In this document: positions 16,618-29,230 of the stretch, piece after piece | Layout: the number at the start of each line of letters is the position of its first letter | Position numbering within the stretch: position 1 is the first letter of the stretch | Source: Leucosporidium creatinivorum | Lineage: Eukaryota; Basidiomycota; Microbotryomycetes; Leucosporidiales; Leucosporidiaceae | Assembly (NCBI GenBank): GCA_001600635.1 | Contig: BCKL01000022.1 | Span: 186,001 to 250,000 of the forward strand | DNA length: 64,000 nt | Direction: 5' to 3' | Notes under the pieces: model-generated | Databases searched by the model: none | Told to the model about the DNA's origin: nothing | Seen by the model: the letters and a program-made list of their open reading frames with translations, nothing else | Translations under genes and position numbers: made by a program

Positions 16618-18354
16618 ATGGCGACCTCGCAGCCTACTAGTAAGTACTACCACTCTCTGCTGCTCTACGAAAGCTAACCCTGCTCTACAACAGTCACCAT
16701 ACACCCGCCGGGCTCCCCTCCTCCCCTGGCCAAGAACCGCTTCTCCAACTTGATCCCCTCGCAGCACATCGCCGTCGTCTCAGAGTACAAGTTGGAGAGT
16801 GGGGTTGTGCTACAGGATGTTTCGGTGGGGTTCAGGACCTGGGGCAAGCTGAATGAGAGGTGAGTTCGAGCTGGAAACGAGGGCGATGAGCACGCAAGGA
16901 GTAGATTGTGAGGGAGGGCGTGGGGGCTGATGGGCTGACCAGGGTGCGCTACCACAGGAAGGATAATGCGATGGTCATCTGCCATGCTCTCACCGGAAGC
17001 AGTGATGTCGAGGACTGGTGCGTTTCGTTCGGCTCGCTTCTCTCTTGCCCCACTTAAAGGCTCTACTTCAACACAGGTGGGGACCCCTCCTCGGCCCTTC
17101 GCACGCATTCGACCCTACCCGCTACTTCATCTTCTGCGCCAACGTCCTCGGCTCGCCTTATGGCACTTCGTCGCCGACGACCAGGAATCCGGATCGCGAG
17201 GATGGAGGACGGTGGGGACCAGAGTTCCCTGCTACAGTCGTGAGGGATGATGTTCGGTTTGTCTATATCTCCGCTCTGCTGTCGAGCGACCCTGAAGCTC
17301 AACCTTGCGCTCCCTCAGCCTTCACAAGCTCATCCTTGACCACCTCGGCGTCGAATCCCTCGCCGCCGTCATCGGCGGTTCCATGGGCGGCATGTCAGTC
17401 CTCGAATGGCCCTTGACCGCTCCCGAAGGCTACGTCCGCAACATCTGTCCCATCGCCACCTCTGCCCGTCACTCGGCGTGGGGAATCTCCTGGGGCGAAG
17501 CTCAACGGCAGAGCATCTACTCGGACCCAGAGTACGAGGGAGGATGGTACCCCGAGGAGGGAGACGGACCAAAGCGAGGACTGGCGGCGGCGAGGATGGC
17601 GGCGCTGTTGACTTATCGGTCCAGGGACTCCTTTGAGAGTCGGTTTGGAAGGAAGGAGGTCGAGTCGGATAGTGAGAGCGCAGGGAAGGGTGGAGCGAAG
17701 AGTAAGGGATTGGGCAGGGGGCAGATGACGGATGCGTGGGGAACGCCAAGGACGCAGGCGGAGCGCGCCGAAGCAGCGCACAACGACGGGCACCGAGCTC
17801 CCTCCGGCACTCGCTCGCCTCGCGCCACCTCACCCACCAGTACCAACTCCGCTCTCCCACTCACACCCAACGGCGACCCCCTCCCTCCTCCTTCCCCACC
17901 ACCCATCTTCTCCGCCCAATCCTACCTCCGCTACCAAGGCGACAAGTTCGTCTCGCGCTTCGACGCAAACTGCTACATCCACCTCACCCGCAAAATGGAC
18001 TCGCACGACGTCGGTCGCGGACGACCTACCGATCCTTCCCCCCTTTCCCTCATCCCCAAAGGAGCACTCGTCATCGCCATCTCGACCGACGGGCTCTTCA
18101 CCCTCACCGAGCAACGAGAGCTCGCGGCAAAGCTTACTGAAGCTGAGCTGGTCGTCATTGACAGTCCCGATGGGCACGATGGCTTTTTGCTCGAGTTTGA
18201 GCAGATCAATAACCATGTGCTGGGGTGGTTGGAGAAGAGGTTGCCCGAGATTTATGAGGGAGAGCCGTTGGTCAAGGTGCAGGAGGGAGAGGCGGGCTTC
18301 GAGTCGAAGGCGAGCCTGTTCGGCGAGGCTGAGGGGGATATCACGAGGTGGTAG
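16618..18354 (+). CDS. MET2: Homoserine O-acetyltransferase
   Basis: The enzyme transfers acetyl from acetyl-CoA to L-homoserine, the fungal route into methionine. The first exon is short (MATSQPT, donor GTAAGT at 16640). Later exons give FRTWGKLNER, NAMVICHALTGSSDVEDW, GPSHAFDPTRYFIFCANVLG, GSPYGTSSPTTRNP, then GGSMGGMSVLEWP with the nucleophile serine, STDGLFTLTEQ with the catalytic aspartate region and DSPDGHDGFLLEF with the catalytic histidine. The order and motifs match the MetX/MET2 alpha/beta-hydrolase family end to end. A low-complexity Ser/Pro/Thr-rich insert of about 95 residues (about 17640-17920) sits before the cap region. It ends EAEGDITRW. The gene is tandem with the lipase and convergent with TFIIS. 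Confidence 0.93.
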
Positions 18355-18577: not shown

Positions 18578-21007
18578 TTATGAGAACTTCCACCTGCGCG
18601 ACGATGAAGCAAAGGTCAGCGGGATTCTCGGCGTGAAGAAAGCGAAGAGAGCCGCACCTGTTGTTGCCTGTGAGGGAGAATTGCGAAGGGAGGGTGGGGG
18701 CGGCAGGTCAGCGAGAGCTCATCGAGTCGTGCTATCAAGGCCGAGGTAGCTCCGACGACATTGTGCGCAGAAGAACGTCGGTGGTCAAGCTTACACTACG
18801 CGAAGGGAAGCGCAGGGTCAGCAAACGGCTTTCGGACGACGGGAATGAGATCGAAAGCTCACGTTGATGCAGCTGTGGGGCGTCGAAAGTGGTGTGGAAG
18901 AAGCGCGTTAGTGAGGCGAGGCGTGCGCGCAGGATACATGAGCAAGCGCACGTCACGAAAGTCTGCGAGCGAGCGAGGAAAGGTCAGCTCGGCGCTCATG
19001 GTCGACGAATCGGAAAGATAACTCACCGTCATCGGCTCATCAGCACTCCTCGTCTGCATCTGTACTCGACCGAAAAACACGCATCAGCTTCCACGCCTTC
19101 CTGTCTCGACCGAAGCCAAGGGTGAGGAACGCACCTGGTAGTAAATCGTCCTCCTCTCCTTGCACTTTCCGCACTGGAACGCATCCGTCTCGGCCTGCTG
19201 AGGCGCTGCTCCTTGCGCCTTGAAGAGGTTCTCCTCCACGAGCTTGCGGTTCACGGCTTGCTGCTCTTCCGAGGCCATTTCCTGTGAGCGGGTCGGCGCC
19301 GAGGTCAGTGGCTGTCGTCGGGGGAGAGGGACGGGGCGAGGAGACGGAACAGGAGGAGAAAGCGAAACTCACCGCCGGACTCATCCCATACAGCCTTACG
19401 ATCGAGATCTCCCCGCTAACGACATCTTCCCTCAAGCTGGGGTTATTGACAGCCTTCAAGTTGAGGAACAAGGACCGCATCTTCTGTCGATAGGTGTTGG
19501 TTCCTTCTGGCGGAGGATTGGTCGTGTGGACGTGCTTCTCGAGCGCGCGGGCGCGGGAGAGGATCAGGTCGGTGGCTGTTCGGAGCGAGGCTCGTCAGCA
19601 GGGGGCGCAGGAGAGAGGGGAAGAGGGAGAGAAGGAGACGAACGAGCATCCGAGTCCGAGGCCAATGCATCGTAGATCATCTCGGCGCATTTCTCCCTCG
19701 TCTTGTCTCCCGTGCAGCCCTCGCCTTGGCCGAATTGAAGTCCATCGGTCTTGTGTGTGCGAGGGGCGCCGTTGAGAGATTCACGGCGTTTGGGTGTGGG
19801 AGCGGAAGTGGAGGTGGAGGTAGAAGGAGCAGGAGCAGGAGCAGGTTTGGGGACGGAGGGCTTGGGCTTCGAGGCGGGCGCGGAGGATTTGGGGGTTTCT
19901 GTGCTGGGAGGGGAGGCGACTGCAGGGGAGGGGGAGGCGACTGCTGAGCCTTCAGAACACCGAGAAGACTGGTCAGCTTTGGACCGAGCGTGGACCAGGC
20001 CAAGAATGACTCACTGTTCTGACTCTCCTTTTTCGGCTTTGCCGCTCCCGAGCCTACATCCGTCTTCCACTTGCGCACAATCTCCTTCGCCAAATCAGCG
20101 ACCTCCTTGCTCGGGTTCTGACGCAGCTTGTTGACCGTTACTCCGATCTTGGTCTCCTGCGAGGGCGGGAGAGCGAGCAGGTCAGCTTCGGCGAAGGCTG
20201 GAGAGACCGGGGAGGGGAGCAAGCGTACGCGGATGAGGTCCTCGGTAGCAATGACATCCTTCTTGAGCTGTTGCAGGATCGAGACGAGCTCCTGCGAAGG
20301 TGGAAGGCGAGGGGGAGGGTCAGCCAATGGCTCGCGTTGGCTCGGAGCTGCTGCTCGAGGCGAAGATGGCTGCTGAACGCAGAGATGCCTTGCTAGTCAA
20401 GCTCTGGCGAAAGAACAAGACCGGCAAGGCGTGTTGAGCAGCAGCGAGGGAGGGAGCGCGGGATGAGGACCAGACGAGCAGCAGCCCTGCGCGGGGCGAC
20501 AAGCCTCCCACAGCGTCGATGCAGCAGACAAATCTCCACCTGTGCTCCCCTCTGCTCCTCCGAGCCCTGCAGCAGACCAGACTGCTTCGCTCCGTGGGCT
20601 CGACCGCCCTCTCCTGCTGCTCGGCGTCCCCTCGCGTTACTGCCTGCCAGCGAGACCTTCAAAGGCAACCACAGCGCTACAGCAGAGTAACGAGCCACGG
20701 TCGTCACCCCGCCTGAGCGTCTGCTGCCCTGCAAGCCCCGCTGACTGCTGCCTCCACCGCCTTTCACGCGACCTGCTGCCGCCTGAGCAGCTAACGAGTA
20801 CAGCAGATCTTGTAGCCTCTACGAGAGCCACCGAATCTGCTGAAGTCGCCCAGCTTGCACTCGGTGGCTCGCCAGCTGTCGAGTGCGGGTCGAGCCAAGG
20901 TCGAGCTGCGAGCTGTGTTGGCGACCTACCTCGGGCTTGTTGGCGGCGGAGGCTGCGTTGAGCTGCTTTTTGAGTCCTTGAACGAATGCGACCGGTGTAG
21001 CCGACAT
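18578..21007 (-). CDS. DST1: Transcription elongation factor TFIIS
   Basis: TFIIS rescues arrested RNA polymerase II by stimulating transcript cleavage in the nucleus. ATG 21007 gives MSATPVAFVQGLKKQLNAAS; the next exons complete the N-terminal domain (ELVSILQQLKKDVIATEDL, ETKIGVTVNKLRQNPSKEV). A Ser/Pro/Ala-rich linker follows, then the central domain (GEGCTGDKTREKCAEMIYDA, LFLNLKAVNNPSLREDVVSG) and the zinc ribbon: [26 protein letters not shown] with the catalytic RSADEP loop, [15 protein letters not shown] and stop at 18578-18580. The last part is spread over exons at 19027-19059, 18952-18962, 18863-18872, 18795 (one T), 18658-18667 and 18578-18593. The first intron (20292-20929, 638 nt) is far longer than its neighbours. 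Confidence 0.93.
18795..18795 (-). other. DST1: Single-nucleotide exon of the TFIIS gene
   Basis: The base T on the minus strand is flanked by an acceptor (CTTCGCGTAG, with GCTGAC about 20 nt upstream) and a donor (GTAAGC). Joined to the exons before (CTGCATCAAC) and after (GCAACAACAG) it gives codons for Cys-Ile-Asn-Cys-Asn-Asn-Arg-Trp, the conserved second cysteine pair of the TFIIS zinc ribbon. Skipping it shifts the frame and removes Cys-Asn-Asn-Arg-Trp. Confidence 0.7.

Positions 21008-26517: not shown

Positions 26518-29230
<2,713 letters not shown>

Follow-up and report, generated by a model that had tools for sequence, protein, structure and literature searches.

The TFIIS gene and its last exons

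The window, by which we mean the whole 64-kb stretch of DNA analyzed here, belongs to a genome of 27.7 Mb that is spread over 63 contigs. On its minus strand, from 21007 to 18578, lies a 12-exon gene for TFIIS (Table 1). The joined protein is complete at 339 aa, has WKF near its C-terminus, and combines in a single chain an N-terminal helical bundle, a central domain and a C-terminal zinc ribbon, the combination by which a TFIIS is recognized. Its Pfam domains all score above the cut-off (PF08711, 64.4 bits; PF07500, 109.7 bits; PF01096, 68.8 bits). The zinc ribbon, PF01096, is covered over 39 of 39 positions, and it aligns with yeast Dst1 without any gap. The joined protein includes C301, C304, C329 and C332 (C-x2-C ... 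C-x2-C), which we take to be the zinc ligands, and RSADEPMT, in which RSADEP presumably is the acidic hairpin. The nearest protein among the matches listed is P0001 from Leucosporidium creatinivorum, with 84% identity over 100%, which points to a Leucosporidium-like member of the Microbotryomycetes as the source of the DNA.

The last 81 coding nucleotides of this gene hold five introns, and the last six exons measure 33, 11, 10, 1, 10, and 16 nt, and the joined 3′ end would spell ...TTCGTGAC-CTGCATCAAC-T-GCAACAACAG-GTGG. An earlier note on this DNA had proposed these six terminal exons, with GT...AG at every border and introns of 67 and 127 nt on the two sides of a single T. All six exons are found where it placed them and with those lengths, every border is GT...AG, and the two flanking introns have the sizes given. 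The exact series is agreed upon by an ab initio gene model, by an exhaustive enumeration of excisions, and by the spacing in the protein family. The evidence also agrees with Microbotryomycetes, the lineage that the note named for comparison.

On the plus strand, at about 18000-18340 of the window, a convergent gene ends near the TFIIS stop codon. Its translated end, read by eye, is SPDGHDGFLLEFEQINNHVLGWLEKRLPE, and we assume that the gene resembles homoserine O-acetyltransferase.

Table 1. Features of the TFIIS gene, in positions of the window; costs and omissions are those of the ab initio model, and percentiles refer to 536 sample introns
Feature	Position	Strand	Evidence
Exon 1, 78 nt, start codon	20930..21007	-	joined model and ab initio path; donor gtaggt
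Exon 2, 63 nt	20229..20291	-	joined model and ab initio path
Exon 3, 142 nt	20015..20156	-	joined model and ab initio path
Exon 4, 306 nt	19644..19949	-	joined model and ab initio path
Exon 5, 203 nt	19373..19575	-	joined model and ab initio path
Exon 6, 147 nt, with C301 and C304 (first pair of zinc Cys)	19135..19281	-	joined model and ab initio path; PF01096
Exon 7, 33 nt, RSADEP (presumed acidic hairpin)	19027..19059	-	joined model and ab initio path
Exon 8, 11 nt, ACTTTCGTGAC	18952..18962	-	ab initio; cost if forbidden 14.2 log units
Exon 9, 10 nt, CTGCATCAAC	18863..18872	-	ab initio; cost if forbidden 9.8 log units
Intron 9, 67 nt, gtgagctt...tcgcgtag	18796..18862	-	signal sum 64th percentile
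Intron 9, branch-site-like GCTGACCC	18815..18822	-	begins 27 nt before exon base T
Exon 10 (predicted), single T, first base of Cys332 codon	18795..18795	-	sole Cys-giving solution; chosen ab initio; omission costs 11.5 log units
Intron 10, 127 nt, gtaagctt...cctcacag	18668..18794	-	signal sum 72nd percentile
Intron 10, branch-site-like GCTGACCT	18705..18712	-	begins 45 nt before exon 11
Exon 11, 10 nt, GCAACAACAG	18658..18667	-	ab initio; cost if forbidden 16.3 log units
Exon 12, 16 nt, GTGGAAGTTCTCATAA, stop codon	18578..18593	-	joined model and ab initio path

Reading frame, splice signals and chance

When exon 9 is joined directly to exon 11, the frame is one base short, and the missing codon must be a Cys. 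The pattern C-x2-C-x3-W is present in 109 of the 120 relatives listed; it is unmatched in 10, and in P0001 28 residues stand where the others have 3. Holding constant exon 8, the first bases of exon 9 and the last bases of exon 11, we enumerated single cuts of at least 20 nt with any borders, and 0 of the 22 excisions of the right length restore Cys332. Among two-intron solutions with GT/GC-AG borders and introns of at least 30 nt, exactly one gives the Cys, and it is the one that uses the T at 18795. The conserved C-x2-C-x3-W end of the zinc ribbon is restored only by the joint removal of introns 9 and 10; with no single-intron solution and one two-intron solution, the T is needed for the frame of the conserved protein.

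If the T were skipped, the product would be a 406-aa frameshifted form that lacks Cys332 and the WKF end, and whose match to the zinc ribbon breaks off at position 33 of 39. The earlier note was right that the C-terminal end and a zinc Cys are lost without the T, although the residue concerned is the fourth Cys (Cys332, the second of the second pair). That skipping is what happens here, either constitutively or as a regulated isoform, we find hardly credible. The frame does stay open into the 3′ region, and in potato invertase tests 33% of transcripts are reported to have lacked an artificial 1-nt exon (PMC4674806), but skipping as the main form would wreck a strongly conserved zinc ribbon. 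A minor T-skipping isoform is possible.

At 18795, the AG-T-GT leaves one base between two complete introns, which is the arrangement of a nuclear 1-nt exon. Donor, branch-site-like motif and acceptor are all present in each of the two introns, with an overall strength that is normal for the sample, even though the acceptor preceding the T (tcgcgtag) is weak when taken alone (17th percentile of the sample introns). Both introns 9 and 10 have a branch-site-like GCTGACC motif. The claim that a branch site precedes every border holds for these two introns (at 27 and 45 nt) but not so well for intron 8, where the branch-like motif ACTAACGC is weak, at the 8th percentile.

How easily could such a site arise by chance? 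We fixed the ends of the 195-nt stretch made of introns 9 and 10 and the T, and shuffled the inside preserving dinucleotides 20,000 times. An AG-T-GT of any strength is possible in 7.9% of the shuffles, and one as strong as the real one in 0 of 20,000. When stretches taken from a 264-kb sample of the genome were put in the same place, 1 of 5,255 equaled the strength of the site, and that one is the locus itself (0 of the 5,254 others). The next-best stretch, in L040, reaches 24.9 versus 30.9 for the TFIIS site. Over both strands of the sample, only two AG-N-GT sites satisfy the thresholds set for acceptor, branch and donor. The stronger is the T at 18795; the other coincides with the beginning of an exon predicted in L022.

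The ab initio gene model was self-trained on the same 264 kb (the window plus stretches L021-L040 of the same genome), with TFIIS masked, and using neither homology nor a minimum exon length. A first self-training without an intron penalty produced 3,988 introns and 127 1-nt exons and was discarded; the model used here has an added intron penalty, cleaner starting ORFs and strand conflicts removed. It comprises 104 genes, TFIIS among them, with 525 introns apart from those of TFIIS, and the percentiles given above refer to a set of 536 introns that includes 11 from TFIIS. The genes on which it was trained are predictions and not verified genes, with a starting coding table taken from long ORFs of the whole sample.

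Run on the TFIIS locus, this model returns the identical 12 exons, the 1-nt exon included. Forbidding the 1-nt exon costs 11.5 log units, and the best substitute is a 13-nt exon without Cys332. We could ask whether that 13-nt exon, at 18789-18777, is the one actually used instead of the T, as it is the best model path once the acceptor of the T is forbidden. But the path scores 11.5 log units lower, and it yields CINLDHRRNNRWKFS, without the fourth Cys and with a zinc-ribbon match that ends at 33 of 39, all of which makes its use exceedingly improbable.

Among its 104 genes, the model predicts no other 1-nt exon. Elsewhere in the sample it does predict four 2-nt exons with margins of 1.4-4.3, and these small margins mean that the four may be spurious. 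For comparison, the same model gives the small exons of the beta-tubulin gene in the window margins of 9.8 (7-nt exon) and 12.0 (5-nt exon), such that the 11.5 of the 1-nt exon is about the same as theirs. We consider it very probable that TFIIS has a constitutive 1-nt exon, the T at 18795, between two ordinary U2-type GT-AG introns, and from the genomic DNA we infer that it is spliced into the TFIIS mRNA.

The beta-tubulin gene itself lies on the plus strand at 26593-29230 of the window, with exons of 7, 21, 14, 19, 19, and 19 nt near its start, and with the 5-nt exon AATGG at 28666-28670, also on the plus strand. Once joined, it matches PDB beta-tubulins over residues 1-442; the ab initio model joined it to upstream exons. 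Another predicted 5-nt exon, GTCTT, is on the minus strand of L033 (1950-1946), with a margin of 13.4 log units.

Relatives and their annotated C-termini

The search for relatives listed 120 matches, of which P0001-P0040 are the nearest rows. The genera of the named rows among these 40 we take to be Microbotryomycetes (the Leucosporidium lineage itself was looked up). Using one looser pattern for all rows, a normal C-terminus is absent in 10 of the 40 nearest versus 1 of the 80 other rows listed (Fisher p = 6e-5). Restricting to rows with a named organism, it is absent in 9 of the 38 nearest (p = 1.4e-4). With a stricter pattern applied to both groups, the contrast vanishes (10/40 vs. 13/80, p = 0.33), because that pattern also rejects ordinary substitutions that are not lost ends; the looser pattern accepts 12 of the 13. 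Among the ten nearest rows with an abnormal end, P0037 may be truncated by its contig.

Some of these annotated ends are suggestive. P0012 stops after FVT, P0022 after CLK, and P0028 after NNR, and all three look as if introns had been retained at the positions of introns 8, 9, and 11, or at most one base away. The annotated P0001 protein carries 25 extra residues right after the Cys whose codon begins with the T in our locus, and reads CINC-ELPYRF...GTR-NNRWKFS. We read this as a misannotation, as if the predictor had stretched the T-bearing exon into the next intron.

P0001 is compatible either with a 1-nt exon or with an 11-nt exon ending in T, and the second possibility matters here because it has the shape that an indel at our locus would conceal. 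If exon 9 had lost a base at its end, or exon 11 one at its start, through faulty sequencing or assembly or by a real deletion in the strain, the true gene would have one 195-nt intron with an ordinary 11-nt exon on one side. The P0001 protein, which has CINC and then E-L-P-Y, is compatible with ...AACT directly before GTGAGCTT (intron 9 here starts gtgagctt), and lengths of at least 195 nt are not unusual among the sample introns (60 of 536). What an indel leaves unexplained is the genome-typical set of branch, acceptor, T, and donor inside that intron, never equaled in the 20,000 shuffles; besides, the borders are not homopolymers. We regard an indel as improbable, and a 1-nt exon as the far better account of the locus.

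We also compared the extra residues of P0001 with the two introns, against a null of 250 introns. For intron 9, the match is equaled or exceeded by 12.8% of the null introns in local and 12% in end-to-end alignment; for intron 10, by 37.2% and 8.8%, respectively. Neither intron clearly beats the null in these comparisons. A scan of viral contigs yielded no DNA of relatives.

A query with the C-terminal region for transcript fragments had 4,852 matches, and among the 120 listed we examined 8, none of which is identifiable as a Leucosporidium transcript; the rows listed in the search for relatives showed no identifiable one either. The C-terminal end of P0121 is intact. P0124 comes from a 4370-nt contig. 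Its protein continues across introns 5 and 6 of TFIIS, as if the contig were genomic DNA from a close relative, and this DNA may cover the microexon region.

Splicing of a probable one-base exon and known cases

In the sample, the median intron is 67 nt and the median internal exon 119 nt. Short introns with longer exons are the setting where intron definition is expected. Introns 9 and 10 would then each be recognized across the intron, and under intron definition no contact bridging the exon is required. With an acceptor and a donor one base apart in AG-T-GT, we infer that the two introns are removed one after the other. The suggestion of intron definition or stepwise removal in the earlier note fits these two complete short introns, whose adjoining acceptor and donor appear too close for simultaneous use.

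Removal could occur in either order. If intron 9 were to go first, the remaining donor would read AACT|gtaagc, and if intron 10 were to go first, the remaining acceptor would read gtag|TGC. The order barely shifts the model scores (donor 5.21 before and 5.39 after, acceptor unchanged), and the scores favor neither. The AG-T-GT would act like a recursive splice site with one base left behind. Ratchet points are not known to leave a base behind, and the AG|GT without an exon between that characterizes a recursive splicing site is not found at 18795, where the T intervenes.

One can imagine a broader picture, in which the TFIIS of Leucosporidiales carries a conserved AG-T-GT, every functional TFIIS mRNA has to pass through an obligatory two-step, ratchet-like splicing whose step efficiency sets how much of this RNA polymerase II elongation factor is made, and the intron-dense Microbotryomycetes harbor recurrent 1-nt exons that escape annotation. 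We offer it as a conjecture that is, as a whole, unlikely. As to where intron 9 came from, a search for copies of it in its own genome returned the locus itself as the sole match, which leaves an origin from introners (a copied-intron family) unsupported.

Single-nucleotide exons have precedents. The statement in the earlier note that 1-nt exons have been reported in plants is correct but incomplete, as a nuclear Fusarium case with RNA reads (PMC12940212) and mitochondrial cases exist. In Arabidopsis and rice, APC11 has a nuclear single-nucleotide exon (PMC4674806). Like the T of TFIIS, it sits between two spliceosomal introns, is essential for the frame and was overlooked by annotation; unlike it, it belongs to a plant and to another gene and was demonstrated with fusion constructs in protoplasts (PMC4674806), while the TFIIS exon is predicted from DNA. 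For APC11, Guo and Liu judged exon definition very unlikely and saw it as possible that intron definition and recursive splicing act together (PMC4674806). The 1-nt microexon of plant VPS55 is conserved, has a strong donor GTRAGT and is absent from reference annotations; it differs in being a plant exon with RNA-seq and RT-PCR proof, and in having transcripts with and without the microexon in some lineages (PMC8831610).

Another nuclear case is fungal. CYP621A of Fusarium has a nuclear 1-nt exon in a conserved motif, spotted by a phase mismatch, within a compound intron that is long for the genome (PMC12940212). There, a G (AG-G-GT) in an ascomycete P450 gene forms the exon, provides the middle base of a Gly codon and is supported by 18 SRA reads (PMC12940212); here, the base is a T, the first of a Cys codon, in the TFIIS of a basidiomycete and within a run of exons of 11, 10, 1, 10, and 16 nt. 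In 2026, the authors presented CYP621A as the first single-nucleotide exon for a fungal gene (PMC12940212).

Drosophila recursive splicing ratchet points share the juxtaposed acceptor and donor and the stepwise removal, but they lie in long introns (PMC8605326), whereas the TFIIS introns have 67 and 127 nt and one coding base is kept. The mitochondrial 1-nt exons of placozoan cox1 (PMC5436844) and of Ophiostoma/Ceratocystis rnl (PMC12308204) are likewise single bases between two introns, but both have organellar, non-spliceosomal introns, those of rnl being group II. An earlier survey came across annotated 1-bp exons that lacked experimental proof (PMC3064661). In basidiomycetous yeasts, cDNAs have revealed microexons down to 5 bp in Sirobasidium magnum and 6 bp in Rhodotorula minuta (PMC9142197). 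Public RNA-seq of L. creatinivorum is deposited under BioProject PRJNA761921 (PMC8905146).

An exact-word search of the open-licence literature found no 1-nt exon in a basidiomycete nuclear gene. The TFIIS exon would belong to a known, very rare kind, in a phylum and a gene that appear to be new for it. If confirmed, it would add Basidiomycota, and a housekeeping transcription factor, to the range of nuclear 1-nt exons. The locus would then be a compact natural substrate for asking how an intron-definition spliceosome deals with an acceptor and a donor separated by a single base, and which intron it removes first. The exon would also help account for the failing annotated C-termini of TFIIS around this lineage (among the matches listed, 10 of the nearest 40 vs. 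1 of the next 80). Exons of one nucleotide are easily overlooked by gene annotation.

We finally note some other small exons and zinc ribbons in the same genome. In L018 (from C16), the ab initio model lists a 12-nt exon at 1528-1539 on the minus strand, without a clear RPB9 end; by eye, this exon reads CCAACACAAGGA, and the gene that carries it we take to be RPB9-like. The run on L016-L018 missed the expected ends in L017 and L018, and recovered the end of the gene in L016 (from C28). There the zinc ribbon IRSADEPSTTFYRCCNPKCAFQWRED, which we presume to be RPC11-like, has an intron at the position matching TFIIS intron 8.
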